From the IMG/VR virus record IMGVR_UViG_3300042090_000958, positions 1 through 27,261 of that record: 27,261 nt of DNA; one strand, written 5' to 3'. Position numbers and translations under genes: made by a program. This DNA is from a virus. Below are positions 7,267 through 27,032 of this stretch, one piece after another (positions within the stretch are counted from its first letter, which is position 1; each line of letters starts with the position of its first letter). The notes beneath the pieces are model-generated. The model made no database searches. It was not told the origin of the DNA and was given only the letters and a program-made list of their open reading frames with translations.

Positions 7267-7281
7267 TTAAACCTCAAAAGT

Positions 7282-13449: not shown

Positions 13450-13700
13450 TGTTTGTTGTTCCTGTCTAGCTTTCGCTTGTAAAAAGGCGACGTCGTGTCC
13501 TGGGGGAGTCTTGTCTTCGACCACTTCTCGTGGAACAGGTCCCACTGTTTTCGCCATTTCGGATCCAGTCTGTTTCTAGCGTTGGCCATCAGCTCGTCTT
13601 CGATGAACTGCTGGTATTCGATCTTCGCGCGCTCTTCCTGTGCCCGCTTTCGCATGCGAGCGTATTCGGCGTCTAGGAATTCTTCGCGCTTAGATTTCAT
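13446..13700 (-). CDS. Small charged helical protein
   Basis: An 84-residue protein, ATG 13700, coupled to the upstream gene by ATGA. It is highly charged and helical (REEFLDAEYARMRKRAQEER), with a Trp-containing C-terminal half (KWRKQWDLFHEKWSKTRLPQ). No cysteine pairs or membrane segment. Function not recognised; helical nucleic-acid-binding or packaging accessory roles would fit the charge pattern but are unproven. Confidence 0.65.
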   Translation of the reverse strand: MKSKREEFLDAEYARMRKRAQEERAKIEYQQFIEDELMANARNRLDPKWRKQWDLFHEKWSKTRLPQDTTSPFYKRKLDRNNKQ

Positions 13701-13843
13701 TGCACGTTGCGCCGCTCGAGGTCAGCGATGCGCTGCTTCTGCTGCTCGAGCTCTTCGACGATCTTCTCGATGCCAGCGACTAAAGGCCCAGCGGCCTTAA
13801 ACACCAGCTCGGCGATCTTCTCGTGGATCTCTTTGTCGGTCAT
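13697..13843 (-). CDS. Short coiled-coil protein
   Basis: A 48-residue protein starting at ATG 13843 (ATGA overlap with the upstream stop, GAGGA ten bases ahead). An in-frame extension to 13900 is rejected because it would lie inside the upstream gene. The C-terminal half (IEKIVEELEQQKQRIADLER) has a heptad pattern of Ile/Val/Leu and is a likely parallel coiled coil. Function unknown. Confidence 0.6.
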   Translation of the reverse strand: MTDKEIHEKIAELVFKAAGPLVAGIEKIVEELEQQKQRIADLERRNVQ

Positions 13844-14142
13844 AGCTTGAACATCCTCCGCGCCTGCAGATGTTTTTGATACAGTCGCCGCCCACGCCAT
13901 GCCGCGTGCTGACGCGTAATCCAGTTAATGCCCAACAGTGTTTTAATTGTCGGCCACACAGTGTTAACCGGCGGCATCCCTAACTGTTGTCTAACAGTGT
14001 TAGGCTGTGCGTCGATTGTATATGTCAGCCAAGCTGAACCAGGCGCCGGCGTCGTGAGCACTGTCGTCTTGCCCTTAGGTGCAGGTCCTACGTGATGCAC
14101 GGTGTGCCCGCTAGTCTCGCGCATGAATTCCTCGAGCGTCAT
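13840..14142 (-). CDS. Hypothetical protein containing repeated DNA motif
   Basis: A 100-residue protein, ATG 14142, coupled to the upstream gene by ATGA. The N-terminus (MTLEEFMRETSGHTVHHVG) resembles MTFEEYVADMITPV of the gene at 15053-15316 in its first six residues only. The C-terminus is basic (RQHAAWRGRRLYQKHLQARR). The middle of the gene carries three copies of ACAGTGTT, described separately. No family recognised. Confidence 0.6.
   Translation of the reverse strand: MTLEEFMRETSGHTVHHVGPAPKGKTTVLTTPAPGSAWLTYTIDAQPNTVRQQLGMPPVNTVWPTIKTLLGINWITRQHAAWRGRRLYQKHLQARRMFKL
13935..14001. repeat. Three direct copies of ACAGTGTT
   Basis: ACAGTGTT occurs at 13935-13942, 13958-13965 and 13994-14001, with the third copy facing an inverted half (TAACTGTTGTCTAACAGTGTTA). 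The stretch is more AT-rich than its surroundings and lies inside a coding gene just upstream of the terminase genes. It could be a protein-binding cluster such as a packaging site or iterons; the sequence alone does not decide. Confidence 0.45.
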
Positions 14143-14525
14143 TCATCACCCGGCTCGTCAGGAGGCGGCGGCGGCAGCGTCAAGGTCTGCGGCATGAGCT
14201 GCTTGGAAGCCGTCATGACCTGATCCCATGTCGCGGGGTCTAACCGAGCCTGCAGCAGCTGAAGGAACTGAACGGCAAGTTGCAGGTTATCACCGTTGCC
14301 CTCAGGTTTCTTCACAGGCTTCACACCGTGGCCCTGACGGATGATTTCGATCAGCAGCTGGGGGGACTGCTCAGCCATTGCTCGGGCGTAGATTTCGTCA
14401 CGATTCGCCGCAACGAAGTCACGGCACGCTGCACGCCAACCAGAAACAGGCTTGCCGGCGGGATTCCCTGACTGCCCCTTCTGCCAGCGATGTGGTCCTG
14501 GTTTGGTCTTGGGTACATCTGACAC
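14139..14525 (-). CDS. DUF5681-like protein, candidate terminase small subunit
   Basis: A 128-residue protein if GTG 14525 is the start; GTG 14543 and TTG 14579 are in-frame alternatives, none with a good ribosome-binding site, and TTG 14579 lies inside the upstream gene. The stretch PHRWQKGQSGNPAGKPVSGW matches the DUF5681 signature (F/W-x-x-G-Q-S-G-N-P-x-G-[RK]-P). It is followed by helices (ACRDFVAANRDEIYARAMAE) and a Pro-rich acidic tail (LPPPPPDEPGDE). DUF5681 proteins occur in phages near terminases, and a DNA-recognition role is possible. This is the best small-terminase candidate here but not a firm one. Confidence 0.6.
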   Translation of the reverse strand: MSDVPKTKPGPHRWQKGQSGNPAGKPVSGWRAACRDFVAANRDEIYARAMAEQSPQLLIEIIRQGHGVKPVKKPEGNGDNLQLAVQFLQLLQARLDPATWDQVMTASKQLMPQTLTLPPPPPDEPGDE

Positions 14526-14550
14526 AACTATCTCGCCCAACACGTGGTAA

Positions 14551-14889
14551 TTACTTAAGTTCTGCGGTGTCCCCGGCAACAGAAGCCTGGGGCGGTGTGG
14601 GGGCGGATGCGGCGGGCTCGGAAACGGAGTCGATTACCGCGTCGAGCCCGTCGATGGCGGTGTCTAGCGTGTCGGCAGTGGCGCCGAGAACGACGGCAGC
14701 GGCGGCCGCGTCTTTGAGAATCGTGCCGGCCACGGGGATGGCCTCGGCGATCTTCGCGAGGATGCCCGCATCGAGCTTGTTGATCTCTGCGACGATGCCG
14801 TCGATGGCGGTGCGGATTTTGTCGGCCTCAGCCCTGACAGCATCGGCGGCGGGCTTGATTTTGGCGAGAGCTGCGGTGATGTCATCCAC
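14551..14889 (-). CDS. Ala-rich helical protein, first gene of the packaging operon
   Basis: A 112-residue protein starting at GTG 14889, chosen because AGGAG lies six bases ahead. The apparent ATG at 14919 falls within the -10 box of the promoter and is rejected. The chain is almost all helix (DDITAALAKIKPAADAVRAE, then EADKIRTAIDGIVAEINKL), with a hydrophobic Ala/Val-rich segment (GTILKDAAAAAVVLGATADT) and a Pro/Ala tail. It looks like a coiled-coil or membrane-associated amphipathic protein. Function not recognised. Confidence 0.65.
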   Translation of the reverse strand: MDDITAALAKIKPAADAVRAEADKIRTAIDGIVAEINKLDAGILAKIAEAIPVAGTILKDAAAAAVVLGATADTLDTAIDGLDAVIDSVSEPAASAPTPPQASVAGDTAELK

Positions 14890-14914
14890 GGGGGCTCCTG
14901 GCTTAAGTGGGCCA

Positions 14915-14942
14915 AGCATACCGAGGCGTCTGACGAAGTCAA
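14915..14942 (-). promoter_or_regulatory. Leftward sigma70-type promoter of the packaging/head operon
   Basis: On the minus strand TTGACT (14942-14937), a 16-base spacer and TATGCT (14920-14915). Predicted transcription start is near 14908, about 20 bases before the GTG with its AGGAG site. From here genes run leftward without a large gap to the capsid terminator. Confidence 0.55.
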
Positions 14943-15052
14943 CACGTATTCGTGCCGCCCGGGACCGTGAAGTGGGTGAAACTGTGACTGCGTCGGAACC
15001 CACCGCTCAGACACCCCGTCAAGATTCCAAAATTGAGCGCTGTTGCATTTTT

Positions 15053-15316
15053 TTAACGACCGAGGGGATACATGGCTGAAAGAGATTTAAATTCGACTGG
15101 CGTCGATTTAGGCCCATTAGGCGAGAACACCTTTCTCGCAATGGTTGAAACTGCACCTGTAACGTCCTGGGGCGCATCGGGGTGGTTCCTCGCGAGCTCG
15201 AGAGCAAGGGCAAGATCCAACCCTTGGCCGTAGTCGTACCACGACAGCCCACAGCATTTGCAGGCCACCTTTGCCACAGGTGTGATCATGTCCGCCACGT
15301 ATTCCTCGAACGTCAT
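15053..15316 (-). CDS. Small Cys-containing hypothetical protein
   Basis: An 87-residue protein, ATG 15316, with GGGGAG about ten bases ahead. It begins MTFEEYVADMITPVAKVACK, then CCGLSWYDYGQGLDLALALE, giving a CxCC cluster and a short helix. The C-terminal third is polar. It lies between the AT-rich island and the packaging promoter, so it may be the last gene of the replication block. Not recognised. Confidence 0.6.
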   Translation of the reverse strand: MTFEEYVADMITPVAKVACKCCGLSWYDYGQGLDLALALELARNHPDAPQDVTGAVSTIARKVFSPNGPKSTPVEFKSLSAMYPLGR

Positions 15317-15456
<140 letters not shown>

Positions 15457-16818
15457 TTAGTTGTTTTTTTCCCTGGCTAACCTTCTGGACCAACCTTCGC
15501 CGGGCTCCCAAGGATAATGACGAACGCCGTCTATCATCGTTTGTGGCAATTTTACCCAGCCTAAATGCCTTAAAATGTCGGCGATCCTCATTTCGTCCCT
15601 CTTTGACTGCTTATCATCTGGCACTCCGATGGTGCTCAATCCGGCGTTTGTAGTGACCAGGGTTGGCTCCTTAATGAGCCATGCCTCTATCTTCTCTGAC
15701 CAAGGATCTGACTCCATGAGCTTGGCGGCCTCGAGTTTCAAGGCATCCTTGTCCATGGTTTCGTCCGGGAAGAACTTTTCCCCGCTCTCCCAGGCTGCCA
15801 CGGCTTCGGCCCAAAGCTGATCACGGAACTGGGCGATGATCTCGAGATCGATCTCTTTGTTGATATGGATCGGGTGCGTTCGCCTATTACCGGTCGCGTC
15901 TGTTAGGAATTGGCGTTCATTCGTCGTTCCAACAAATACACATGATCGTGGCCGGCTGACTTCTCCCCCATCGCGTCCACCTCCGAACGGAATGAAATTG
16001 TCGGTGGGACTGCCAAGAAACTGTTTGATCTCGTGGCCTCTTTTACTCCTAAAGCTCTTGAGCTCGGCAATCTCGTGGACCCAGAACCTATTGAGCATGG
16101 ATAGCGCCCGCTTGGGATCATTTAGATCCAGTTCTGTGTCGCTAACCCAAGGGTCGCAAAGGGCTTTTATCGATCTAGACTTGTTAACATCCTCGTTTCC
16201 TATCAGCACCAGGAAGTGATCGTGCTTCGATCCTGGCTTCATGGCCCTGGCGACAGCCCCAATGAAGAACCAGCGGAGCAGCTTTAGCGCTAGAGGGTCG
16301 GTCTGGTGAAAGGCTTTGCGTGCCACGATATCGATGGCCGACGGCAGTTCCTGGACCCACGTCAGCCCACTCAGGTACTCGCGCACCGGGTGGTACGGGT
16401 TCTCACTGGCGAGCACGTCGAAGGCTTCGTGAGATGTCTCATTGGGTAGTTGGATCAGTTTGGACTTGCGACCGTCCGTGCCGCGGATCTTGAGCTCAAC
16501 GGTTTCGCGCCACCTAACAACGTCAGCCCTGAGTAGGGGCTTGCGGTTGAACTCAACTCGCTCGGTGAGCTCGTTCAGTTCGATCTCCCCGGGCCCGAGC
16601 GTCAGTTCACGCAGCGCCGGGTCCCTCAGTATGCGACACGCAGACGCCAGCGACTTAGTCAGCCCCGGGACGACGTGATAGGACCTGGTCCTATTACCAC
16701 CGCCCTGGATGACCGACAGGTTCGGGGGTGCGTCGGAATCGTCCGGTGGTGGTGGGTCATTTAAGCCGGGGGGTGCATACTCATCACCCGGCGGAGGCGG
16801 CGGAGGCGGCATTTCCAT
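15457..16818 (-). CDS. VirE-type primase-helicase ATPase
   Basis: A 453-residue protein. The first about 35 residues are Pro-rich. The ATPase core matches the virulence-associated E (VirE, pfam05272) family used by phages and plasmids as a replicative helicase: LVLIGNEDVNKSRSIKAL at residues 203-220 is the P-loop, FWVHEIAEL (246-254) is the Walker B segment, and TTNERQFLTDATGNRRTHPI (298-317) is the sensor and arginine-finger segment. In the P-loop the usual Gly before Lys-Ser is Asn (N212). It lies beside the AT-rich island. The start has only a weak GGGGA, and ATG 16812 is also possible. Confidence 0.82.
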   Translation of the reverse strand: MEMPPPPPPPGDEYAPPGLNDPPPPDDSDAPPNLSVIQGGGNRTRSYHVVPGLTKSLASACRILRDPALRELTLGPGEIELNELTERVEFNRKPLLRADVVRWRETVELKIRGTDGRKSKLIQLPNETSHEAFDVLASENPYHPVREYLSGLTWVQELPSAIDIVARKAFHQTDPLALKLLRWFFIGAVARAMKPGSKHDHFLVLIGNEDVNKSRSIKALCDPWVSDTELDLNDPKRALSMLNRFWVHEIAELKSFRSKRGHEIKQFLGSPTDNFIPFGGGRDGGEVSRPRSCVFVGTTNERQFLTDATGNRRTHPIHINKEIDLEIIAQFRDQLWAEAVAAWESGEKFFPDETMDKDALKLEAAKLMESDPWSEKIEAWLIKEPTLVTTNAGLSTIGVPDDKQSKRDEMRIADILRHLGWVKLPQTMIDGVRHYPWEPGEGWSRRLAREKNN

Positions 16819-16847
16819 GTAAGTGGGTCCCCAAAATAAATCTGCCC

Positions 16848-16868
16848 CCCACCGGGGCGGCCGGTGGG
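16848..16868 (-). terminator. Weak terminator-like hairpin
   Basis: CCCACCGG (16848-16855) and CCGGTGGG (16861-16868) form an eight-pair stem with a five-base loop. On the minus strand a T-rich stretch (TTTATTTT, 16840-16833) follows seven bases later. It lies in the 143-base gap between the nuclease and ATPase genes and may weaken read-through. The gap holds no convincing gene. Confidence 0.4.
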
Positions 16869-16961
16869 AGGCAGTGGATTTAGGCTAGGCCCTATCCAAA
16901 CAGGTTTGAGATCGTGGCCGAGCCGCCCGCTGGCATTACGCATCTGTACCCAACGGGGCCG

Positions 16962-17264
16962 CTACTCGTCAAGTGCCTCGAGCACGTCGCTGACGCTGCG
17001 GGCGATTACGTAGACGCCGCCGGCGCGTTCGACGGCTTGCTGGAACAGCTTCTGGCGCTGTGACTGCCGGCCCGTTTCGGTCTTGGCCTCGATCGCTATG
17101 TAGCGGCCTTGGTGTATGGCGAGGATGTCGGGGTGGCCGTTGGGCAGGCTGCGCACCTGCTTCCGGCCGCGCTTGGCGACTACCACGTTGCAGCGGTAGA
17201 CGAGCACGTCGGGGCGGGAGCCGAGCTCGACTAGGATCGCTCTCACTACAGCGCCTTCAGCCAT
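16962..17264 (-). CDS. VRR-NUC domain nuclease
   Basis: A 100-residue protein, ATG 17264, overlapping the helicase gene end by 19 bases, with AAGGA ahead. It is a complete minimal VRR-NUC domain (pfam08774), a PD-(D/E)xK-type fold: EGAVVRAILVELGSRPDVLV, then the metal-binding NGHPDILAI (Asp) and IAIEAKTETG (Glu and Lys), then QSQRQKLFQQ and AGGVYVIARSV. Such stand-alone phage nucleases act as structure-specific or single-strand nucleases in replication or recombination. Pairing with an SF2 helicase supports that role. Confidence 0.85.
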   Translation of the reverse strand: MAEGAVVRAILVELGSRPDVLVYRCNVVVAKRGRKQVRSLPNGHPDILAIHQGRYIAIEAKTETGRQSQRQKLFQQAVERAGGVYVIARSVSDVLEALDE

Positions 17265-18610
17265 TGCTTATCCTTGCCGACCAGTTCCCTCCATATACCC
17301 CAGGGCATCGGCTCTTGAGGGAACTTTTCTTTGTAGCGATGGACCACGTACCCGGGCTTTCTGCCCATAGCACGGGCCTCGAGCATCCATGCCCGGAACA
17401 TGTCGCGAGGCGAGCCTTGGCCGATCGGGCGGGCCACTGCGTTCTCGACGACCAGCTTGGTGACCTTCTTGACCCGCTCGGCCCCGCAGTTCGGACACAC
17501 GTCGCCCTCGAAGATGGCGTAGCACTGGGCGCAGGTGTGCAGCGGCAGCTCCTCAGCCGCGGTTAGGTCCTTCGCCACCTTGTCGCGGTCCTTCTGTAGC
17601 GAGTAGTCTCGATCCTGCTCTGGCAGCCCGTGGCGGCGTAGCAACTTGGAGTGGTCGTGGATACGGGCCAGAGCTTTGCCGGGCGCGGGGCGCATGATTC
17701 TGCCGACCATCTGCAGGTAGAGGGATGTGGACATCGTCGGCCGGCACAGCAGCGCCGTCTCGAGGTCGGGGATGTCCACGCCCTCGGTCAGGATCGTCAC
17801 GTTGCACAGCACGCGCGTCTCGCCTGAGCGTAGGCGCTCGAGGATGGCAGAACGCTCGGCCAGCGGCGTCTTGAAGTCCAAGTGCTCGGCTTTGACGCCA
17901 ACGCTCTGGAACTCTGCGCACAGGCGCATGCTGTGCTCGATGTCTACGGCGAAGACGATCGTGCGGCTGCCGGCGCAGTGCTTGACCCACTGTTCGACGA
18001 CATTGCCGAGGATCGTCTTGGTGCTCATGGCCATCGAGAGCGACCTGGTGTCGAAGTCGCCGTTGACGATCTTGATGTCCGTGAGGTCGGCCGTTACGTA
18101 CTCAAAGCCCGTGTAGCGACACAGGTGCCCCGCGTCCATCAGCTCACGCGGTTTGGCTGCGACCACTAACGAGTCGAACCACTCGCCCAGGCCTTTACCG
18201 TCCAGGCGGAACGGTGTTGCGGTTAACCCGACGATCGGCGCTCCGACGTCGAAGAGATCGCGATAACTTATAGATTGAGAATGATGCGCTTCATCGATGA
18301 TGATCAGGTCCGCAGCTGGCATATGCCGCCGGTTAAGCGTCTGAATGCTCGCCAGCTGCACAGAGTGGTCTGTGCGCGGATGGCCGGCCATGATCACGCC
18401 GTGCGGGATGTGGGCGAAGCGCTTCGATGTCTGCTCGATGATCTCACGACGGTGCACGACGAACAGCACGCGGCCGCCGCGCTCGATCAGGTGCTGGGCG
18501 ATAACGCTCTTGCCTGAACCTGTAGGGGAAACGAGCAGAACTCTGGCCTTACCAGCGGCCAGCTCAGCGAGGATGCTATCCACCGCCGTTTGCTGGTAGT
18601 CCCTAAGCAT
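17246..18610 (-). CDS. SF2 DEAH helicase with C-terminal zinc ribbon
   Basis: A 454-residue protein from ATG 18610; the longer frame to 18667 runs into the small upstream gene. It opens MLRDYQQTAVDSILAELAAG, the Q-like start of DNA-dependent SF2 helicases. Motif I SPTGSGKS (28-35), motif II DEAH (106-109), motif III LTATP (129-133) and motif VI QMVGRIMRP are all present. After the RecA-like domains a zinc ribbon follows (CAQCYAIFEGDVCPNCG). The C-terminal tail has WMLEARAMGRKPGYVVHRYK. It belongs to the Type III restriction/UvsW-like helicases used in phage replication and recombination. It overlaps the nuclease gene. Confidence 0.88.
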   Translation of the reverse strand: MLRDYQQTAVDSILAELAAGKARVLLVSPTGSGKSVIAQHLIERGGRVLFVVHRREIIEQTSKRFAHIPHGVIMAGHPRTDHSVQLASIQTLNRRHMPAADLIIIDEAHHSQSISYRDLFDVGAPIVGLTATPFRLDGKGLGEWFDSLVVAAKPRELMDAGHLCRYTGFEYVTADLTDIKIVNGDFDTRSLSMAMSTKTILGNVVEQWVKHCAGSRTIVFAVDIEHSMRLCAEFQSVGVKAEHLDFKTPLAERSAILERLRSGETRVLCNVTILTEGVDIPDLETALLCRPTMSTSLYLQMVGRIMRPAPGKALARIHDHSKLLRRHGLPEQDRDYSLQKDRDKVAKDLTAAEELPLHTCAQCYAIFEGDVCPNCGAERVKKVTKLVVENAVARPIGQGSPRDMFRAWMLEARAMGRKPGYVVHRYKEKFPQEPMPWGIWRELVGKDKQWLKAL

Positions 18611-18710
18611 CGCGTGACTTCTTCCTCTGCGCCGCATTGTGCCCGGCGATAGCGCCGAGGATCTCATAGACGAGCGGTACGATGAGCATCATCGCGAAGA
18701 TCCATTGCAT
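18603..18710 (-). CDS. Small membrane protein
   Basis: A 35-residue protein at ATG 18710 with AAAGGA six to seven bases ahead. The first 23 residues (MQWIFAMMLIVPLVYEILGA) are one transmembrane helix; the tail is basic (AAQRKKSRDA). Its end overlaps the helicase start by eight bases. Small early membrane proteins in phages often modulate host functions; nothing specific can be said here. Confidence 0.6.
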   Translation of the reverse strand: MQWIFAMMLIVPLVYEILGAIAGHNAAQRKKSRDA

Positions 18711-18721
18711 GGTTGGTCCTT

Positions 18722-18925
18722 TCACTTGATTCCCCCGTTCCTCAGCATGAGTTTCTTCCTCGCTTCGGGTTCCATGGCGTCCATGGTGTGCATCTCTTTG
18801 AGCGCGCATTTCGCGCAGACGTCCCTGTCTGGGCCTGAGATGGTCCATGACATCCGGATGCTCGCGGGCCTGCCACAGGTGCCGCAGACTGCCGGCGTAA
18901 CCCGTTTATTGAACCCTTTTGGCAT
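18722..18925 (-). CDS. Zinc-ribbon protein, first leftward early gene
   Basis: A 67-residue protein with a perfect GGAGG five bases before ATG 18925. It has two Cys pairs, VCGTCGRP near residue 14 and VCAKCALKE near residue 36, spaced like a zinc ribbon. The C-terminus is helical and basic (EPEARKKLMLRNGG). As the first gene after the control region it could be a small nucleic-acid-binding or regulatory protein. The family is not identified. Confidence 0.7.
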   Translation of the reverse strand: MPKGFNKRVTPAVCGTCGRPASIRMSWTISGPDRDVCAKCALKEMHTMDAMEPEARKKLMLRNGGIK

Positions 18926-19022
18926 CAGACCTCCGGCGCTTTCGTTCGTTTAGTTTGTGTATTTCCGCATGGATACGGCATCTAGACTGCCCTTCGACGG
19001 CATTTCGTTGGCAGCCTAGCCA

Positions 19023-19048
19023 GGTGCATTTTCGTTTGGGCATGCACC
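19023..19048. promoter_or_regulatory. Candidate operator: GGTGCAT-N12-ATGCACC
   Basis: A perfect seven-base inverted repeat with a 12-base gap, 26 bases overall. It lies next to the rightward -35 box and over the predicted leftward transcript start. Size and place fit the binding site of a dimeric repressor. Two related tracts, GCATTTCGTTGG at 19000 and GCATTTTCGTTTGG at 19026, form a direct repeat here. Confidence 0.5.
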
Positions 19049-19050
19049 GA

Positions 19051-19079
19051 TGTATATCCGATGTTGACAGCGAACGCAA
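19051..19079 (-). promoter_or_regulatory. Possible leftward early promoter overlapping the rightward one
   Basis: On the minus strand TTGCGT (19079-19074), a 17-base spacer and TATACA (19056-19051). It would start transcripts near 19044 toward the zinc-ribbon gene. The rightward -35 box lies within its spacer, so the two promoters would compete. The boxes are weaker than those of the rightward promoter. Confidence 0.4.
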
Positions 19080-19092
19080 TCGGGTGTATATT
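19064..19092 (+). promoter_or_regulatory. Strong rightward sigma70 promoter
   Basis: TTGACA (19064-19069), a 17-base spacer and TATATT (19087-19092). This is nearly consensus. The predicted transcript starts near 19099 and reaches the first gene after about 33 bases, through GGAGGT at 19121-19126. Confidence 0.75.
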
Positions 19093-19131
19093 CACATCGC
19101 CGGCATTCCGGCCGGTTCTAGGAGGTACCAA

Positions 19132-19359
19132 ATGAAGATGGACCACAAGGATGATCGTTACGCCGACGCCTGGGAGCGCTTCTGCGAGGAGGAAGTGGAC
19201 GTGCCACTGGCGCGTTGGCAGGTGATGGAAATCATTGAGCTGACCAGGGCCCACGGCACGCCATCGGCGAAATCGTTGATCCCGGACCTGGAGGAATTCA
19301 CCGAAATGCCCGACAGCGGGACCGGGATGGACTGCGAGCCGGATGGGGACGAGCGATGA
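19132..19359 (+). CDS. Small acidic early protein
   Basis: A 75-residue protein. ATG 19132 is set by GGAGGT six bases upstream; the frame continues open to 18919 but that part is the promoter. It is acidic with a helical core (DDRYADAWERFCEEEVDVPL, then RWQVMEIIELTRAHGT) and an acidic tail. As the first gene of a strongly promoted early operon it may act on the host or on transcription; nothing in the sequence says which. Confidence 0.65.
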   Translation: MKMDHKDDRYADAWERFCEEEVDVPLARWQVMEIIELTRAHGTPSAKSLIPDLEEFTEMPDSGTGMDCEPDGDER

Positions 19360-19637
19360 ACGTCTTTTTCTACGAGGCCCTCTTGATCACTAAAGCCAAT
19401 GCCCTTTTCCAGGGCGAAGCGCTAAAATTCCAAAACGTCGCGACAGGTGCAGGAGACGCGAAAGCGGACCTCCCCCCGGCGCCGGTCGGAAGCGTGGCGC
19501 CTCAGCACGTGCGGCAGAACTGGGGCAATTTCTATGACGCATGCGTCCGGCTGGATCGCTACCTGCGAGACCAGGGGGATCAACAGCCGTTCGAGGACTG
19601 GCTTTATATCCGTAAATTCCTGGAGGGAATCAAATGA
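19356..19637 (+). CDS. Hypothetical early protein
   Basis: A 93-residue protein coupled to the upstream gene by ATGA. The first 30 residues are helix-like (FYEALLITKANALFQGEALK), followed by a Pro/Ala linker (ADLPPAPVGSVAPQHVRQNW) and a second helical part (ACVRLDRYLRDQGDQQPFED). It is directly upstream of the recombination gene, to which it is also coupled. No family recognised. Confidence 0.65.
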   Translation: MNVFFYEALLITKANALFQGEALKFQNVATGAGDAKADLPPAPVGSVAPQHVRQNWGNFYDACVRLDRYLRDQGDQQPFEDWLYIRKFLEGIK

Positions 19638-20704
19638 GCGAGTCTCTGGAAGATGTAGCCAAGGCAAAGGCTGAGGCCGCGGCCCTGGCAAAGGCCAAAA
19701 GGGACGCCTTTGCCAGGGCGTGGGAGGCCTCAATGAGCATTTACGATCCGCACAACATCGAATCCGCAGTGACCCTGGCAGCCATGCTGGCTAAATCGCA
19801 GATCCTCCCGCGGCATCTGCACGGGAAGCCGGCTGACGTGCTGGCCATAATGATTAAGGGGCGAGAGCTCGGAATCTCGACCATGAAGGCGCTGTCTGGA
19901 ATGTACTGCATCAATGGCAAAGTCGAGCTCGATGCTGCGACCCTGGCGGGCGTGGTCATGTCGCGAACCGACCTGTGCGAGTATTTGACGCTCATCGAGA
20001 GCACTGACAAGGTGGCAACCTATGAAACTAAGCGAAAAGGGAGTCCGAAGTCTGTTGTAATGGGCTTCACGATGGTCCAGGCAGAACGGGCTGGTTTACT
20101 TCGTAATGATGTTTGGCGAAAATTCCCTGAGGCGATGCTTCGCGCAAGAGCCATCTCTGTTGTCGCCAGAGCTGTTTACCCTGATCTTGCCGCAGGTCTA
20201 TACGTCCAAGGAGAGATTGGAGGCGATGATCCAAAATACGTACCTGCCACGAGCCAAGTCGAGGCGAAACCCACCCGCCCCGCTTTCCCCGTCACTGACG
20301 CAGACTTCGAAGTCATCCGCGAGAGCCTCAAAACGCCGCCGGTCGCGGAAGACGAAGTAGCGGAACCCGCACCGGCAGCCAGGGGCACGTGGACGGATTC
20401 GGAGCCTGACTTCAGCCCTGACGACAAGATCAGCGCCGAGGCTGCGCGGGAGAATCAGTTCGCGGGAGTGAAGATGTCAAGCGGGCCCCTGAAGGGGCAG
20501 TTCGTCAGCGCTCAGCCGCTGGCGTGGCTGGTGAAGGCCGCCAAGCACCTGCAGACGATCGTCGACCTGGCCACAGAGTCCGGGCAGCCGCAGAAGGTGG
20601 GCAATATCAAGATGCTCGAGGCGCTGGCGTACTACATTGAGAAGAAGAGCGCAGAGGACTACACGGACGCGGAAATTAACGCAGCACAGGAGGAGACGAA
20701 ATGA
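19634..20704 (+). CDS. RecT-like single-strand annealing protein
   Basis: A 356-residue protein, GGAGGG ahead of ATG 19634 and ATGA-coupled. After an Ala/Lys-rich helix, residues about 45-180 carry the run ILPRHLHGKPADVLAIMIKG, RELGISTMKALSGMYCINGK, VELDAATLAGVV, then a beta-rich part and KFPEAMLRARAISVVARAVY. This order (a helix, AGRELG.S.M.AL.G..I..GK..L.A..M, then W.K.P..M..ARA.S) is that of phage RecT-superfamily annealing proteins. They coat single-stranded DNA and anneal complementary strands. The C-terminal third is linker-like, then a helix-rich tail (LAWLVKAAKHLQTIVDLATE). No exonuclease partner lies alongside; the VRR-NUC is on the other side. Confidence 0.7.
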   Translation: MSESLEDVAKAKAEAAALAKAKRDAFARAWEASMSIYDPHNIESAVTLAAMLAKSQILPRHLHGKPADVLAIMIKGRELGISTMKALSGMYCINGKVELDAATLAGVVMSRTDLCEYLTLIESTDKVATYETKRKGSPKSVVMGFTMVQAERAGLLRNDVWRKFPEAMLRARAISVVARAVYPDLAAGLYVQGEIGGDDPKYVPATSQVEAKPTRPAFPVTDADFEVIRESLKTPPVAEDEVAEPAPAARGTWTDSEPDFSPDDKISAEAARENQFAGVKMSSGPLKGQFVSAQPLAWLVKAAKHLQTIVDLATESGQPQKVGNIKMLEALAYYIEKKSAEDYTDAEINAAQEETK

Positions 20705-21027
20705 CAACGCGACGCCAGGGCGATGTGTTCATCCGTAGTCTGACGAAGGCTGCGGCCGAGAAGCTCAAGGCTGGCATGAAGGAGATCCCGCGTGACAAGG
20801 GGCGGGTGGTGCTGGCCTACGGAGAGGTGACCGGGCACAGTCACGCCATTTCTGAGCAGGCTGTTAGGTTTCTCACGAACGATGCAGCGCTTCGGATTCT
20901 AGAGATCCGAGAGCCGGCGACACTCCGTCATGAGGAGCATCGCGCCTTCGAGCTTCCGGTCGGCGATTATGAGGTGACCATTCAAAGGGAGTGGCACCGT
21001 AAATCCATCTTCACCGTAGCGGATTAG
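20701..21027 (+). CDS. Small conserved beta protein (GEVTGHSHAI family)
   Basis: A 108-residue protein with GGAGGAGACGAA before ATG 20701. The sequence GRVVLAYGEVTGHSHAISEQ, then PATLRHEEHRAFELPVGDYE and VTIQREWHR, follows a conserved small-protein pattern I recall from bacterial and phage genomes: G-D-V, then VLA-x-GE-x-TGH-x-HA, HEEH, LP-x-G-x-Y and QRE. The four conserved His residues suggest metal binding or a cupin-like shape, but no function is known to me. In other genomes it is, from memory, found beside DUF6745-like genes, as here. Confidence 0.65.
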   Translation: MTTRRQGDVFIRSLTKAAAEKLKAGMKEIPRDKGRVVLAYGEVTGHSHAISEQAVRFLTNDAALRILEIREPATLRHEEHRAFELPVGDYEVTIQREWHRKSIFTVAD

Positions 21028-21029
21028 CC

Positions 21030-23210
21030 ATGGCCAATAAAAAACGGTACGAATTAACGGAAGAACATCGTTCGCAATTTGAACCGTGGGCAAGGCGCTG
21101 GATCGCCAATGCAATGAACACGAAGCCGCTCACGGCTGACGAGAAGCAGCGAGTTCACGCGGCAATCAAGGGGCTATACGAGGCGGCTGGCCTGAAGCCA
21201 CCGCCGGACGAGCGGATCATTTTCGTCCCGTCGCCAGCCGTGGCCAGGTTCGCAGGCGGATTCGCTGCCTGGGTTTGGTACACGAGGAAGCATGGAGTGG
21301 ACGCCGCTACGTACGCCGCTACGGCCGCCGCTACGGTCGACGCTACGGTCGCCGCTACGGCCGACGCTACGGACGCCGCTACGGCCGCCGCTACGGCCGA
21401 CGCTACGTACGACGCTACGGTCGCCGCTACGGCCGACGCTACGTACGACGCTACGTACGCCGCTACGAACGCCGCTACGCGCGCCGCTACGGACGCCGCT
21501 ACGAACGCCGCTACGCGCGCCGCTACGAACGACGCTACGCGCGCCGCTACGGTCGCCGCTACGGACGCCGCTACGAACGACGCTACGCGCGCCGCTACGG
21601 TCGCCGCTACGTACGCCGCTACGTACGACGCTACGGTCGCCGCTACGGTCGCCGCTACGCGCGCCGCTACGTACGCCGCTACGAACGCCGCTACGCGCGC
21701 CGCTACGGCCGCCGCTACGGCCGACGCTACGTACGCCGCTACGGTCGACGCTACGGTCGCCGCTACGCGCGCCGCTACGGACGCCGCTACGTACGCCGCT
21801 ACGTACGCCGCTACGGTCGCCGCTACGGCCGCCGCTACGAACGCCGCTACGGTCGACGCTACGGTCGCCGCTACGGCCGCCGCTACGGTCGACGCTACGG
21901 TCGCCGCTACGTACGCCGCTACGCGCGCCGCTACGGACGACGCTACGCGCGCCGCTACGGCCGACGCTACGGCCGACGCTACGTACGCCGCTACGGACGC
22001 CGCTACGCGCGACGCTACATACGCCGCTACGTACGCCGCTACGAACGCCGCTACGCGCGCCGCTACGGCCGACGCTACGCACGACGCTACGGCCGCCGCT
22101 ACGCGTGCCGCTACGGACGCCGCTACGGCCGCCGCTACGGCCGCCGCTACGGCCGACGCTACGTACGCCGCTACGAACGCCGCTACGGACGACGCTACGG
22201 TCGCCGCTACGTACGCCGCTACGTACGCCGCTACGTACGACGCTACGCGCGCCGCTACGGCCGCCGCTACGGACGACGCTACGCACGCCGCTACGAACGA
22301 CGCTACGCGCGCCGCTACGGTCGCCGCTACGGACGCCGCTACGCGCGACGCTACGGCCGCCGCTACGTACGCCGCTACGGACGCCGCTACGGACGCCGCT
22401 ACGCGCGACGCTACGGTCGACGCTACGGACGCCGCTAGCGGCACCCGCGATCTTTCCCGCTGGTACGTGATCGATGATCTTGTTCCATTGTCTGAGAAGT
22501 TCGGCGGAAAACAGGCTCTTGAATGCGCCTACCTTGCCTATCGGATGTGGAACGGCGGAAACCAGTGGTCGGCGTGGCCCGCGTTCCTGTCGTTCTTCAG
22601 GCATGTGGCAAAGCTCGCTCTGGACTACAGCAAGTGGGATCACTATGAGGTCGCGGCAATCGCTGGCCATCGCGTGATGCACCCGGATTTTTGTTTGGTT
22701 TCGGACAGGCCCGAGATCCTTACCGTGGACTCCGAGAACCGACCGCACGGGGAAAACGGCCCGTTCTGTAGGTGGCGCGATGGCTTCGCATTGTATTCCT
22801 GGCACGGAAATAGGATCCCCGCCTGGATGATTGAGCACAAGGAACGGATCACTCCGGAGCTAATCGACGCAGAGAATAATACTGAGATCCGGCGCGCCAT
22901 GACTGAGATCTACGGCGAGGCCCGCTACATGCAGGATTCTGGGGCTGAGATCATTCACCGTGATGAGTTCGGCGAGCTGATGCGAAAGGAGATCCCTGGG
23001 GACGAGCCACTCGTGATGGTGCGCGTGAAAAACTCAACGCAGGAGCCTGACGGGAGCTTCAAGACGTATTTCTTGCCCGTGCACCCGGAATTGCGGCCGC
23101 TGTTGCCAGGCGGGGAGCTGGGCGAGCCTCAGGAACTGACGGCAAAGGCGGCAGTCGCCTCGACGTTTGGTTTGCGCGCCGAGGAGTATGACCCGGTGAT
23201 TGAGACATGA
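21030..23210 (+). CDS. Giant tetrapeptide-repeat protein with DUF6745-like C-terminus
   Basis: A 726-residue protein in three parts. Residues 1-91 are a folded N-terminal part (RYELTEEHRSQFEPWARRWI, ending FAAWVWYTRKHG). Residues 92-470 are 94 perfect [Ala/Asp]-Ala-Thr-X tetrapeptides plus a final AAS. Residues 471-726 (LSRWYVIDDLVPLSEKFGGK, then the run EILTVDSENRPHGENGPFCR and WRDGFALYSWHGNRIPAWMI) resemble, from memory, the DUF6745 family, whose members can also carry Ala-rich repeats. No signal peptide. No clear ribosome site, so it is probably translated by coupling from the gene three bases upstream. Function unknown. Confidence 0.7.
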   Translation: MANKKRYELTEEHRSQFEPWARRWIANAMNTKPLTADEKQRVHAAIKGLYEAAGLKPPPDERIIFVPSPAVARFAGGFAAWVWYTRKHGVDAATYAATAAATVDATVAATADATDAATAAATADATYDATVAATADATYDATYAATNAATRAATDAATNAATRAATNDATRAATVAATDAATNDATRAATVAATYAATYDATVAATVAATRAATYAATNAATRAATAAATADATYAATVDATVAATRAATDAATYAATYAATVAATAAATNAATVDATVAATAAATVDATVAATYAATRAATDDATRAATADATADATYAATDAATRDATYAATYAATNAATRAATADATHDATAAATRAATDAATAAATAAATADATYAATNAATDDATVAATYAATYAATYDATRAATAAATDDATHAATNDATRAATVAATDAATRDATAAATYAATDAATDAATRDATVDATDAASGTRDLSRWYVIDDLVPLSEKFGGKQALECAYLAYRMWNGGNQWSAWPAFLSFFRHVAKLALDYSKWDHYEVAAIAGHRVMHPDFCLVSDRPEILTVDSENRPHGENGPFCRWRDGFALYSWHGNRIPAWMIEHKERITPELIDAENNTEIRRAMTEIYGEARYMQDSGAEIIHRDEFGELMRKEIPGDEPLVMVRVKNSTQEPDGSFKTYFLPVHPELRPLLPGGELGEPQELTAKAAVASTFGLRAEEYDPVIET
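21303..22439 (+). repeat. 94-unit 12-bp coding tandem repeat (GMCGCTACGNNC)
   Basis: Each unit is G[C/A]C GCT ACG NNC, in perfect 12-base phase over about 1.1 kb. Codons 2 and 3 are almost invariant: one ACA near 22018 and a final AGC are the only changes seen. Codon 1 is Ala or Asp. Codon 4 always ends in C (one CGT excepted) and encodes only Tyr, Ala, Val, Asp, Asn, Arg or His. As a result five of six reading frames stay open; the sixth has TAG in every unit. Confidence 0.95.
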
Positions 23211-23320
23211 TGAGCGCCCCAAGCGCATGGCAGATCGCCCTCGGGAAGGCTGCGGCGTCGAGGACCCCAGATGAATTCCGAGACGTGCTGCTTTCTATTG
23301 CGAGAAGCGCTAAGCAGTAG
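23207..23320 (+). CDS. 37-residue protein ending the rightward operon
   Basis: Found by hand. ATG 23207 overlaps the stop of the repeat-protein gene (ATGA), with a second in-frame ATG directly after. The protein begins MMSAPSAWQIALGKAAASRT and ends in a helix (DEFRDVLLSIARSAKQ). Its stop overlaps the convergent leftward gene by 11 bases. It is short, but coupling and codon pattern support it. Confidence 0.6.
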   Translation: MMSAPSAWQIALGKAAASRTPDEFRDVLLSIARSAKQ

Positions 23321-23702
23321 CCGGAGGCACGATCACGCAAAGCACCTTGTGCTGGGCGATGATCTCCCTCACCCGCCTAGAGCAGACGATGCACCCATCT
23401 GACGCGGTGTGATTCTGCTGTGGGTTGTCGCCGTGGCAATAGAAATCACCCCTGCCCCACATCTCATTGGTCGGATCTGGCGTGAGCGGAATCGAAAACT
23501 CACCCGTCGACTGTAGTCGGTCTTCCGGCGTCCCGATCATATACATGCCCGGGGGAAGCGGCCCCTCACCGTGCTGGTCGATGGCGTCAGGATTGTTCAT
23601 CCACACGCCGTGACCAGCGTAGCCAGTGCCCAGGGTCAGCGTCTCGCCTGTGTCATCGTCTATCGAGCTGATCTTGCCTGTGGGGATCTCGTAGACGATC
23701 AT
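23310..23702 (-). CDS. Tlde1/DUF2778-type cell-wall enzyme, probable endolysin
   Basis: A 130-residue protein from ATG 23702, chosen for AGGAGG seven bases ahead; the frame to 23732 is open. It follows the DUF2778 (Tlde1) pattern: Y-x-x-x-TGK at the start, GYAGHGVWMNNPDAIDQHGE, GPLPPGMYMIG, PLTPDP, GRGDFYCHGDNPQQNHTASD and the catalytic SDGCIVCSRR (Cys with the upstream His). Known Tlde1 proteins are L,D-carboxypeptidase/transpeptidase-fold enzymes acting on peptidoglycan stem peptides, described as type VI secretion effectors. Here no signal peptide is present and a single-TM protein lies two genes upstream, so a phage lysis role is likely. Confidence 0.75.
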   Translation of the reverse strand: MIVYEIPTGKISSIDDDTGETLTLGTGYAGHGVWMNNPDAIDQHGEGPLPPGMYMIGTPEDRLQSTGEFSIPLTPDPTNEMWGRGDFYCHGDNPQQNHTASDGCIVCSRRVREIIAQHKVLCVIVPPATA

Positions 23703-23838
23703 CGATTGCCTCCTGAAGAATGCGGCGTGCACTGATGGGACTGGCTTCCGGCTTCCCCTTTTGCCTTTCGTCCTTGTAGCCCTTGCAGAACAGGCAGCCG
23801 TTGCGTTGGTGCTTGGGGCGTCGGCGCTTGAAGTTCAT
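23653..23838 (-). CDS. Small basic CxxC protein
   Basis: A 61-residue protein, ATG 23838, coupled to the upstream stop by ATGA with GGAGGGATGAGGA ahead. It is very basic (FKRRRPKHQRNGCLFCKGYK) and has one Cys pair. From memory this resembles short bacterial and phage proteins with the pattern RRRPK...GC..CK..K. Its end overlaps the enzyme gene by 50 bases, so the C-terminus (RDPHRQDQLDRR) may not be essential. Function unknown. Confidence 0.55.
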   Translation of the reverse strand: MNFKRRRPKHQRNGCLFCKGYKDERQKGKPEASPISARRILQEAIDDRLRDPHRQDQLDRR

Positions 23839-24134
23839 TCCTCATCCCTCCGGCGCCGAGCCTCAAACTCCTCCGGGCTGAGCGGACGCATCCCGGAACG
23901 TGACTGTGGTGAGCGCTGCACCACCTGCGTTGGGGCGTCCAGGATCCCATTCCGTAGCATGGCGTCGCGCATGTCATTAACCACGCTCTCAATGTGGTCG
24001 AACCGCCGGTGCATCCCGACCACGCTCTTCTGCTGGACGGCGTTATGGACCAGCCAGCCAACGAATCCCACCGCAGCGGGAACCAGGATCAGGCCAACGG
24101 CTTCGACGATGAGGAGGGCGCTCTCGGTGGTCAT
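23835..24134 (-). CDS. Single-TM coiled-coil protein, candidate holin or spanin
   Basis: A 99-residue protein, ATG 24134, coupled by ATGA with AGGGG ahead. Residues about 6-28 (ALLIVEAVGLILVPAAVGFV) form one transmembrane helix, followed by a helical, partly coiled-coil domain (RRFDHIESVVNDMRDAMLRN) and an acidic-basic tail. One N-terminal helix plus a coiled coil, just upstream of a cell-wall enzyme, fits a class III-like holin or an inner-membrane spanin. The family is not identified, so this is a position-based call. Confidence 0.6.
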   Translation of the reverse strand: MTTESALLIVEAVGLILVPAAVGFVGWLVHNAVQQKSVVGMHRRFDHIESVVNDMRDAMLRNGILDAPTQVVQRSPQSRSGMRPLSPEEFEARRRRDEE

Positions 24135-24352
24135 GCTAGCCCCTGGTCATTTTCGTGATCCCTCATCAGGGAGAACATCATGTCGCTCAAGTGCAGCTCG
24201 TCCCGTCCCTGATCGGCACACATCCGCACCCCGACGGTAAACAGCAGAGCAGCGGCGGACTTCTCGTCCCCACCAGTAAGTTTCAGCGCTGATTGGATCA
24301 GCTCCGTTACCCGTCGGCAGTATTCCAGCTCCCGTTCCGTTAGAGTGTTCAT
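24131..24352 (-). CDS. Hypothetical small helical protein
   Basis: A 73-residue protein, ATG 24352, ending in ATGA with the next gene. It is helical (NTLTERELEYCRRVTELIQS, then SAAALLFTVGVRMCADQGRD). An overlapping frame starts at GTG 24359 with a better-spaced AGGAGG, but its product looks compositionally random and does not couple to the next gene, so the ATG frame is preferred. Confidence 0.6.
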   Translation of the reverse strand: MNTLTERELEYCRRVTELIQSALKLTGGDEKSAAALLFTVGVRMCADQGRDELHLSDMMFSLMRDHENDQGLA

Positions 24353-24367
24353 TAGCCACGGCGCCTC

Positions 24368-24673
24368 CTACCGAGCTGGGGTGAGGTCGATGTAGTAGTA
24401 ACCGCCGAGGGTAGGGGCAGGCCCGAAACTGGCCGGGAGGCTGATCTTGAACTGAATCGTCCCCTGATTCGTGACTGCCTGGTAGGCCGCATCCTGAGAT
24501 GCTTGGCTCTGACGCAACGTAACCACGTAGCTAACGCTGGAACCGGCATCGCCGATCCCGTAGCTCGAGATCGTCTCGACGTTCACGCATTGATAGATAA
24601 GCGCGTGAGGGTTAACGCCACCGTCGCCGATGGTTCCAAGTGCCAAGTATGCTGCCAAAACGAGAGCGTGCAT
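24368..24673 (-). CDS. Small secreted-type or virion protein with leader
   Basis: A 101-residue protein with AGGAGG six bases before ATG 24673. It starts MHALVLAAYLALGTIGDGG, a short hydrophobic leader closely like that of the fiber gene at 2937 (MHAFALIAALTAGQG). A YGIGDAGSSV motif contains the Asp-Ala-Gly signature. The remainder is beta-rich (VSYVVTLRQ, then GGYYYIDLTPAR). It lies next to the Cys-rich repeat gene. A virion-surface or exported role is likely; exact function unknown. Confidence 0.65.
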   Translation of the reverse strand: MHALVLAAYLALGTIGDGGVNPHALIYQCVNVETISSYGIGDAGSSVSYVVTLRQSQASQDAAYQAVTNQGTIQFKISLPASFGPAPTLGGYYYIDLTPAR

Positions 24674-24682
24674 TGTGTCCTC

Positions 24683-26200
24683 CTAGCAGCAAGAGCCGCT
24701 ACAACAGTTTGTGAATCCAATCGTCGTACAATTGTTGCCACACGAGCCGCAGTTGTAGGGGTCGGTGTTGCTGTCTGAGCATGTCGCGTTGCAGCACTGA
24801 TTGTCTTCGTAGTTCGAGCAAGGGTTGTCGCACTCGCCGCAGTTGAAGACGTCGGTGTTCCCGTTCACGCAAGAGCCAGAGCAGCAAAGGTCATCGCCCT
24901 CGTTGTAACAGTTGTTTCCGCAACCGCCGCAGTTGGTGGGACTGCTGGATGTATCGGTGCACTCGCCACCGCAGCATGGCTCACTGGTGCAGAATGTTCC
25001 GCAACCGCCGCAGTTATCTGGGTCCGTGTTGGTGTTTGAGCAGCTCCAGTAACTACCAAAATAGCAGCACGCGTTATCGCCTTCGCTCAAGCAGTCATTT
25101 CCACAACCACCGCAGTTTGCAATCGTATTGGCGCACTGCCCATCACCGTCGACTACGCAGCAATAAGGGGTTTGCGCCTCATAGGGACACGAGTAGCCAC
25201 AAGACCCGCAGTTGTTCGGGTCCATTGATGTATCGATGCATTCCTCGCCAGAGCAAACGGTGACCGGCGGGTAAGGCCCGCAACACATGCCGTAAAGACA
25301 CGCCCACTCCCCCGAGCCGCAGTTGTAACCGCACGTCCCGCAGTTGTTGGGGTCTTGCTCGGTGTTGGTGCAAGTCCCGTTGCAACATGTGTTGGTGTTG
25401 CAGATGTTGCTGCAAGTCCCGCAGTTGTTGTCGTCAGTGAGCTGATCGACGCAGCTACCCCCGCAGCAGATCTCCTGTGCGATGGCACCTGCGTCATCCG
25501 TGATTTCGGGACAGACGTTTCCGCATCCGCCACAGTTGTCGTTGTCGTACTGCGTATTGACGCAATTGCCGTAACCGCCCGCGTCGTAGCAGTAGGTCGG
25601 TGCGCCCGTCGCAGAACAGCACTGGCCATTGACGCAACCGTCTTGGTATCCGCTGCAGTAGATACCGCATCCACCGCAGTTGTAGTTATTGGTAAGGCTA
25701 TTCGAGCATCCGCTGCTGGGGCAGCATTGATTCTGCTGACCCCCATCGTAATATCCTGCGTCAAAGCAGTTGCTGCCACACGTCAGGCAGTTGAGCGGGT
25801 CGGTGGCCGTGTTGGTGCAGTCACCAGCGCAACACGTCGCGCCACCGCCAGCATCGCAGAAGACCCCGCATCCCCCGCAATTGTTCGTATCGGTCGCGGT
25901 GTTGATGCACATGAAATCAAAGCCGCAACGACCGTTTGGGCATTCGGTGAAGTAGGTGTCGCCGCCATCGTAGGACACCCACCCGCAGTCACTGAACCCC
26001 GCGTCGCACTCGCAATCGTTTGCGGTGCAACTTGCCCCGAAGTCGCAAGCCACACCGCATCCAGCGCAGTTGTCGGATGTGTTCAGCGGGACGCACCCGC
26101 TCGTCGGAGTGCACTGGTAGCTACCCTCGGGGCAGCACATGCTAGCCTGCTGCGAGATGTAGCCTGGTGGCCCGATGGCCAATAGCAGAGCAAGGATCAT
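24683..26200 (-). CDS. Cys-rich NCGGCG repeat protein with signal-like leader
   Basis: A 505-residue protein, coupled to the upstream stop by ATGA. After a hydrophobic leader (MILALLLAIGPPGYISQQAS) it holds 13 repeats on the pattern C-C-x-G-x-C-x(n)-D-x-x-N-C-G-x-C-G-x-x-C, with about 90 Cys (near 18%). Unit spacing is 30-45 residues. Between units are five Asp-Ala-Gly motifs. Such repeats are well known in exported proteins of Myxococcota and relatives. So many Cys would need an oxidising place outside the cytoplasm or the mature virion surface to pair. It sits in a block of other leader-bearing genes. Role unknown: host-surface mimic, adhesin or coat component are options. Confidence 0.8.
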   Translation of the reverse strand: MILALLLAIGPPGYISQQASMCCPEGSYQCTPTSGCVPLNTSDNCAGCGVACDFGASCTANDCECDAGFSDCGWVSYDGGDTYFTECPNGRCGFDFMCINTATDTNNCGGCGVFCDAGGGATCCAGDCTNTATDPLNCLTCGSNCFDAGYYDGGQQNQCCPSSGCSNSLTNNYNCGGCGIYCSGYQDGCVNGQCCSATGAPTYCYDAGGYGNCVNTQYDNDNCGGCGNVCPEITDDAGAIAQEICCGGSCVDQLTDDNNCGTCSNICNTNTCCNGTCTNTEQDPNNCGTCGYNCGSGEWACLYGMCCGPYPPVTVCSGEECIDTSMDPNNCGSCGYSCPYEAQTPYCCVVDGDGQCANTIANCGGCGNDCLSEGDNACCYFGSYWSCSNTNTDPDNCGGCGTFCTSEPCCGGECTDTSSSPTNCGGCGNNCYNEGDDLCCSGSCVNGNTDVFNCGECDNPCSNYEDNQCCNATCSDSNTDPYNCGSCGNNCTTIGFTNCCSGSCC

Positions 26201-26697
26201 CGAATCCCGTTGGAAGGCGTGCCGGCGTCAGGTGAATTTTGCTCCTGACCTGGCGTAGCAACGCACCAGACTTTGGTTCCGGCGCCCCATTGCACGCATT
26301 GATTGCTGGGAAGCATCGTGCCGACATTCGTGCCGGCATCGATGGCGAACTGACCGCTAAGGGCCGGCGTCTGCCCATACCAGATGGGGTTGCTGCCATT
26401 GTTGCAGAACTGCGCCGAGGAATAGCCGCTAATACACCCGATCTGCGTCCCATAGCCCTGGCATAGCGTCATGCAGCTCGAGCCGGCATCCTGGCCGTTT
26501 TCGACGTATACCGGCAGAGTGCCGCCGCTATTGCCGCCGTCACCATTGCCGATCTGGGATGACAGAATCAGCCGCCCATACTGGTCCACCGCAACGGGTA
26601 CGTTGTTGCCGGCGTCGACCTGGCCAACCATCAGGTTCGGAGGTGAATTGTTCCAGGGGTTAGTGGCTAGCAGCCAGGCCGCGACGAGCTTCCACAT
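26197..26697 (-). CDS. DAG-motif protein with hydrophobic leader
   Basis: A 166-residue protein. ATG 26697 follows the upstream stop (26700) directly; the longer frame to 26898 lies inside that gene and reads as a shadow. The start, MWKLVAAWLLATNPWNNSPP, is hydrophobic and signal-like. Four Asp-Ala-Gly motifs occur (QVDAGNNV, GQDAGSSC, AIDAGTNV, SPDAGTPS), along with six cysteines and beta-prone stretches (VAVDQYGRLILSSQ). It shares leader type and motif with its neighbours and with the fiber gene. A virion or exported surface protein is likely. Confidence 0.65.
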   Translation of the reverse strand: MWKLVAAWLLATNPWNNSPPNLMVGQVDAGNNVPVAVDQYGRLILSSQIGNGDGGNSGGTLPVYVENGQDAGSSCMTLCQGYGTQIGCISGYSSAQFCNNGSNPIWYGQTPALSGQFAIDAGTNVGTMLPSNQCVQWGAGTKVWCVATPGQEQNSPDAGTPSNGIR

Positions 26698-26699
26698 GG

Positions 26700-27023
26700 C
26701 TATTGCCCAACACGCGCTTTGATGAAGCTGACTTGCCCGGTGCCAGTCGATGCCAAAGCGTGCACCACAAGGCCGGGGGCGAGCCGGATGGGCTGGTGCG
26801 GGAAGGTGGATGTCACCGGGATCAGAGCGTTGGCGCTGGTCGCAGCGGCACCGGTGTTGATGTAAGCCGGCTCGCCAGCCACAACAAAATACCACCATGA
26901 GCTCTGATCCGTCATTTGCCCGGAATTGCCCTGAGCCGGGATGGTCCCGCTGGCATCCGTGCCGGACGTGGCAATCACTACAGTCGTGGTGAAATCAGGC
27001 GTGAACAGTGAAAGCGAAGCCAT
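26700..27023 (-). CDS. Beta-rich structural protein, tandem paralogue
   Basis: A 107-residue protein with TAGGAG before ATG 27023. It is beta-rich: SLFTPDFTTTVVIATSGTDA, then QMTDQSSWWYFVVAGEPAYI and LAPGLVVHALASTGTGQVSF, ending IKARVGQ. The partial gene just upstream has the same DQSSWWY, PG.VVHAL and RARVGQ segments, so the two are paralogues. No leader and no enzymatic motif. A virion subunit is likely; not recognised. Confidence 0.65.
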   Translation of the reverse strand: MASLSLFTPDFTTTVVIATSGTDASGTIPAQGNSGQMTDQSSWWYFVVAGEPAYINTGAAATSANALIPVTSTFPHQPIRLAPGLVVHALASTGTGQVSFIKARVGQ

Positions 27024-27032
27024 TGTTGTCTC

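Follow-up and report, generated by a model that had tools for sequence, protein, structure and literature searches.

The window analysed here is an entire virus record, 27,261 bases long, in which a rightward set of genes parts from leftward genes at a divergent junction. A strong, nearly consensus sigma70-type promoter faces the rightward set at this junction, a candidate leftward promoter overlaps it, and a 45-residue open frame, P0013, with a zinc knuckle like those at the N-termini of phage HNH endonucleases, runs leftward beside them. With moderate confidence, we read the junction as an early control region in which the strong rightward promoter would compete for RNA polymerase with an overlapping and weaker leftward one, P0013 would be carried on a near-leaderless message, and any part played by a palindrome over its start would be secondary.

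In the proposed mechanism, a strong host-type promoter would drive the rightward RecT operon of a tailed phage, and the weaker leftward one, which shares 16 bp with it inside an 88-bp gap, would serve the replication genes that lie to the left. Given this overlap of the cores, RNA polymerase bound to either promoter should exclude the other, so that the strong promoter would dominate by itself and the weak one would come into play once the strong one is empty or blocked. The leftward transcript would begin at, or a few bases from, the ATG of P0013 and would probably be leaderless or nearly so. Any operator role of the palindrome that covers this start would be putative and secondary. The coordinates of the features are collected in Table 1.

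Table 1. Features at and around the divergent junction (window coordinates).
Feature	Position	Strand	Remarks
DNA helicase, leftward set	17246..18610 (ATG 18610; frame open to 18667)	-	phrog_16 E 3.5e-99
P0001, 67-aa zinc-ribbon-like, first recognised leftward gene	18722..18925	-	Shine-Dalgarno 18930-18934
P0013, 45 aa, zinc knuckle C-x4-C-x10-C-x2-H and basic tail	18906..19043	-	like phage HNH endonuclease N-termini
Second, imperfect inverted repeat CTAGACTGCC-N18-GGCAGCCTAG, inside the P0013 frame	18982..19019	.	32/400 shuffles as good
Inverted repeat GGTGCAT-N12-ATGCACC	19023..19048	.	perfect 7-bp arms
Alternative leftward promoter TATACA-17-GAAAAT	19028..19056	-	8.0 bits; 533/1000 shuffles as good
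Gap between divergent starts, 88 bp, both core promoters inside	19044..19131	.	gene layout and promoter scan
Candidate weak leftward promoter TTGCGT-17-TATACA	19051..19079	-	score at chance; predicted start ~19043-19045
Rightward sigma70-type promoter TTGACA-17-TATATT	19064..19092	+	11/12 matches; predicted start ~19096-19099
P0010, 75-aa acidic protein, first rightward gene	19132..19359	+	perfect Shine-Dalgarno AGGAGG 19120-19125
RecT-like annealing protein, third rightward gene	19634..20704	+	phrog_561 E 6.3e-28

The Virus Record and Its Relatives

The only other contig found for this virus, IMGVR_UViG_3300014658_000106, is 36,739 bases long and differs from window 13634-22331 at 2 positions in 8,698 aligned bases. 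Window 22322-27261 is identical to its first 4,940 bases, and its base 14,409 corresponds to window base 1. The two contigs thus overlap at both ends, as would be expected if the genome were circular or circularly permuted and about 36.7 kb in size; 9,468 bases (~9.5 kb) of it lie outside the window and are known from the partner contig. Since neither of the two differences falls inside the region under study, the partner contig is uninformative on conservation. Both of its ends fall inside a 726-aa repeat gene, which in window 21299-22442 holds about 1.1 kb of repeats encoding AAT/DAT-rich units.

Diverged relatives did not come to light in IMG/VR peptide-pattern scans with P0001, P0003 (RecT), P0009 (portal), and TerL, which returned the partner contig only. 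The genome_contigs collection held no relative of P0003 or TerL, the portal was unmatched in phages, and the matches of TerL and RecT in phages were distant ones only. At the nucleotide level, the single match consisted of 129 bases in a helicase. The best 80 of 592 relatives of the helicase were 34-41% identical, and they are useless for the control region.

Gene Layout at the Divergent Junction

The rightward set spans 19132-23210 and encodes, in order, the 75-aa acidic protein P0010, a 93-aa protein, the RecT-like protein, a 108-aa protein, and the 726-aa repeat protein; leftward frames appear again beyond 23210. Leftward from the junction, the order is the 67-aa zinc-ribbon-like P0001, a helicase, an endonuclease-like protein, and a VapE-type primase/helicase, with TerL and the portal further on. 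The Shine-Dalgarno energies of the genes nearest the junction are strong (P0010, -11.5 kcal/mol; P0001, -10.2 kcal/mol). An N-terminal extension of P0010, whose frame is open upstream to 18919, was rejected for its poor coding (-0.36 per codon). The 206-bp stretch 18926-19131 is not wholly intergenic, much of it being taken up by the open frame of P0013, which overlaps P0001 by 20 bp and which the earlier note had overlooked.

Several other parts of the window have features of their own. The gap at 15317-15456, which separates the VapE-type gene from the leftward genes that follow it, is AT-rich and includes a long (AT)n stretch; it contains promoter-like matches on both strands and is perhaps a second control point. 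A 140-aa frame at 23310-23732 (minus strand) matches the Pfam family Tlde1_dom (E 7.7e-13) and also phrog_24118, and a Cys-rich protein of 505 aa with repeated NNCGxCG-type units is encoded at 24683-26200 (minus strand). Window 7001-9000 has a strong AT skew (-0.16 to -0.33) over a 362-aa gene that has no PHROGs match.

Proposed Overlapping Promoters

The strong core promoter of an overlapping divergent pair is present at the junction as the rightward promoter. Scored with an E. coli matrix of the sigma70 type, it reaches 17.3 bits and outranks every other candidate on either strand of the window, the runner-up scoring 13.9. None of 1000 shuffles of the 206-bp region reached this score, nor did any of 20 whole-window shuffles, the highest of which gave 16.6. 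The nearly consensus rightward promoter that the earlier note had proposed is supported, and it is likely the main early promoter of the phage.

The leftward genes would need a promoter of their own, so that one is to be expected, and its presence in the gap is plausible by position only. The candidate TTGCGT-17-TATACA lacks the final T of the -10 box. At 4.9 bits it falls short of the best score that shuffled regions reach on average (8.3), and 976 of 1000 shuffles did about as well or better. The alternative TATACA-17-GAAAAT comes near that mean; a further leftward candidate at 19633-19603 (9.4 bits) lies within the rightward genes. The divergent control region with overlapping promoters that had been described at this site therefore stands as far as its rightward member and the arrangement of the genes are concerned, but its candidate leftward promoters score at chance. 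The geometry also needs correction. The rightward promoter had been placed inside the spacer of the leftward one, which is true only of its -35 box; the leftward -35 box lies in turn within the rightward spacer, and the two cores share 16 bp.

The Zinc-Knuckle Frame P0013

P0013 translates as MPKRKCTWLGCQRNAVEGQSRCRIHAEIHKLNERKRRRSDAKRVQ and contains 14 Lys or Arg and 4 Asp or Glu residues. Its ATG lies 8 nt beyond the leftward -10 box and lacks a Shine-Dalgarno sequence: the energy of -3.5 kcal/mol is ordinary, with 46.6% of random 20-mers at -3.0 or below. This start fits a leaderless message and also fits the absence of a gene. The GC3 of the frame (0.49) is the lowest among 19 small frames compared, the others ranging from 0.53 to 0.83, and the codon score of the enclosing frame 18906-19079 is -0.42 versus 0.11 to 0.37 in 14 gene frames. 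P0013 had no match in PHROGs at E up to 10, and its best match in Pfam was at E 0.26 only.

The N-terminal zinc knuckle of a subgroup of phage HNH proteins is present in P0013 and is identical at 13 of 24 positions to the N-terminus of the HNH endonuclease of Ruminococcus phage NatCom_38182, a match that by itself reaches only E 0.5 in direct tblastn against phages. With an HNH endonuclease as the query, P0013 is picked out in the window at E 1.2e-5. A profile of six phage HNH N-termini gives P0013 20.2 bits, compared with 13.3 for the best of 2000 residue shuffles, and ranks it first among 522 stop-to-stop frames of the window (19.0 versus 6.6). After removal of the row that P0013 itself had found, P0013 is still first (18.1 versus 15.8 for the best shuffle), and omission of further rows gives 16.6 versus 15.7 and then 15.3 versus 12.3; these margins of the reduced profiles are modest, and the rows are linked to the frame, one HNH locus (L121) having been found with P0013 and the others through L121. 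The motif C...GC.{8,12}C..H, which was defined after P0013 was seen, occurs in 0 of 3000 region shuffles, and in 1.14 Mb of other loci it is confined to the HNH locus to which P0013 had led. The looser C.{2,4}C.{6,16}C.{2,4}[CH] turns up in 54 of 3000 such shuffles of the region. Nine plasmid records matched P0013 at E 3 to 9, two of which were translated in the match frame, as was a second phage match (L124); none of these was used.

P0013 shares with phage HNH endonucleases such as L121, Ruminococcus phage NatCom_38182, the pattern (K/R)-R-x-C-x3-GC ... AVEG ... C-x2-H at the protein start. Unlike them, it has nothing beyond the knuckle but a short basic tail and ends 40 residues after the first Cys (this Cys counted), and the HNH catalytic domain is absent; a search for the catalytic part in the window and the additional 9.5 kb found none. 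An IMG/VR scan for C-x3-GC-x-R-x-AVEG returned 14 stretches, comprising 10 HNH-type N-termini (one cut within the motif by a contig end), three short frames of 23-27 residues in no HNH-type context, and this virus. Among these 10 N-termini and P0013, 11 in all, P0013 alone breaks off shortly beyond its knuckle with no contig end there; another, L141, ends 65 residues from the first Cys and has HNH-like sequence up to that point. We consider that P0013 is probably made as a protein.

The Inverted Repeat and the Search for a Regulator

The palindrome GGTGCAT-N12-ATGCACC exists exactly as the earlier note had described it. On the minus strand, one arm contains the ATG of P0013 and the other corresponds to codons 5-7. 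Some perfect 7-bp inverted repeat with a spacer of 0-20 occurs in 14.4% of 2000 region shuffles, and one with a spacer of exactly 12, a length chosen post hoc, in 0.85% of 2000. A search for the same palindrome elsewhere found no further exact copy in either contig; it is unchanged and single-copy in the partner contig, which is the same virus. The several related operators of a lambda-type switch were likewise not seen, as there is one palindrome and the window has two sites at three or fewer mismatches, with 1.6 expected. An IMG/VR scan for the arms followed by TTGACA within 5-35 bases gave 33 stretches including this virus. These were rejected as evidence, a rough estimate of chance being tens; among the other 32, five have a 5-of-6 -10 box, and three of those are copies of one sequence. 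The second inverted repeat, three occurrences of TTTCGTT, and CGATGT were judged chance or near chance.

Regulator genes were sought by a PHROGs scan of 47 frames, some of them overlapping alternatives, and by a Pfam scan of 20 frames. The search covered most frames of the virus, including the additional 9.5 kb outside the window; the PHROGs scan took in the neighbours P0001, P0002, P0010, and P0013, and P0004, P0007, and P0008 were excepted. Neither scan matched a helix-turn-helix (HTH) or repressor family, and an HTH repressor gene beside the operators, as in a lambda-type switch, was thus not found in the frames scanned. The statement that no repressor gene is visible agrees with these scans, but it had overlooked the basic zinc-knuckle frame within the region itself. 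P0001 and P0010 were set aside as candidate regulators; their single-sequence models have mean pLDDT values of 69 and 54, every match of P0001 to PDB folds has an E above 0.3, and sequence searches gave no usable match to solved structures. Folding of the region is ordinary as single-stranded DNA (z -0.77), as the leader RNA 18926-19045 (z -0.77), and as the rightward leader (z -0.56), and Rfam and tRNA scans gave no match. A replication origin at the region was also rejected, as DnaA-type boxes number 0 in the window and 1 in the additional 9.5 kb.

Alternative Explanations

Three readings of the repeat are open to consideration, namely an operator, a hairpin in the RNA at the AUG, and chance. 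As the operator of a dimeric regulator, it would block leftward transcription and might activate the rightward promoter. Its perfect arms suit this role, and it would span roughly +1 to +21 relative to the leftward start, the usual position for a repressor, with its centre near -63.5 of the rightward promoter, which would be usual for an upstream activator. However, the repeat is at chance level and single in each contig, its arm centres are 19 bp or about 1.8 turns apart and would thus be off-face for a simple dimer, neither family scan offers an HTH protein to bind it, and the arms with TTGACA are about as frequent among viral stretches as roughly estimated for chance. From its sequence, an operator is neither supported nor excluded, and we regard this explanation as unlikely. 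The repeat might instead act in the leftward RNA, where a start at or before 19048 would allow a 7-bp hairpin to hide the AUG at its stem and repress translation of P0013. With both arms transcribed in full, the predicted hairpin GGUGCAU/AUGCACC has -9.0 kcal/mol, and 1 of 200 shuffles is as stable, but this fold test was made on a stretch picked for its repeat, and the predicted start at 19043-19045 omits part of the 5' arm. We consider this alternative quite improbable. More elaborate still would be a free-standing HNH-derived zinc knuckle, expressed from a leaderless mRNA, that autoregulates the overlapping divergent early promoters through the palindrome over its own start and dispenses with an HTH repressor; this seems very improbable.

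A different explanation is that P0013 is not made and is either the decayed remnant of an HNH endonuclease or a chance frame, which would reduce the region to a promoter pair. Its GC3 and codon score, which differ from those of the other genes, its missing Shine-Dalgarno sequence, and the fact that the relatives by motif are full HNH proteins and that a catalytic part is found nowhere in the window or the additional 9.5 kb all favour this explanation. On the other hand, all four metal ligands are kept, the ATG stands where HNH proteins start, and the frame overlaps P0001 and runs in the same direction. A remnant or chance frame is a serious possibility, albeit a doubtful one.

Comparison with Known Systems

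The arrangement proposed here, with overlapping promoters in competition and P0013 read from a near-leaderless message, can be compared with three systems in the literature. The Pr/Pc switch of the Bacillus subtilis plasmid pLS20 is described as two divergent promoters that overlap, differ in strength, and are served by a regulator (PMC4207663). In pLS20 the weak promoter starts just upstream of the strong -35 box, at 6 bp, and here it would do so at a predicted ~20. For pLS20 the regulator is known, operators and looping are part of the account, and activities have been measured, in contrast to the phage region, which is known as sequence only. In phage PY54, the cI and cro mRNAs have been proved to be leaderless and to start at the AUG (PMC4488713). 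Like PY54 and the lambda-type cI-cro regions as portrayed there, the present region separates divergent phage genes and may produce a leaderless message, but it has no HTH repressor match and one palindrome, and its possible leaderless gene encodes a zinc knuckle. The EcoRV restriction-modification system is reported to have overlapping divergent core promoters that RNA polymerase cannot both occupy (PMC5333194). The core promoters proposed here would overlap in a similar way; EcoRV differs, according to that report, in its genes, its control by a C protein, and a C message that is not leaderless. A literature search on early divergent phage promoters returned nothing relevant, and we make no claim that such an arrangement is unpublished.

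Biological Significance

For an uncultured phage that has no close relatives, this analysis locates what is likely the main early promoter, and the presumed intergenic operator beside that promoter overlaps a small gene-like frame. If P0013 is made, a nuclease domain would have been put to use on its own at a point of control, and the leaderless messages of phage control regions would include an example other than the lambda-like repressors.
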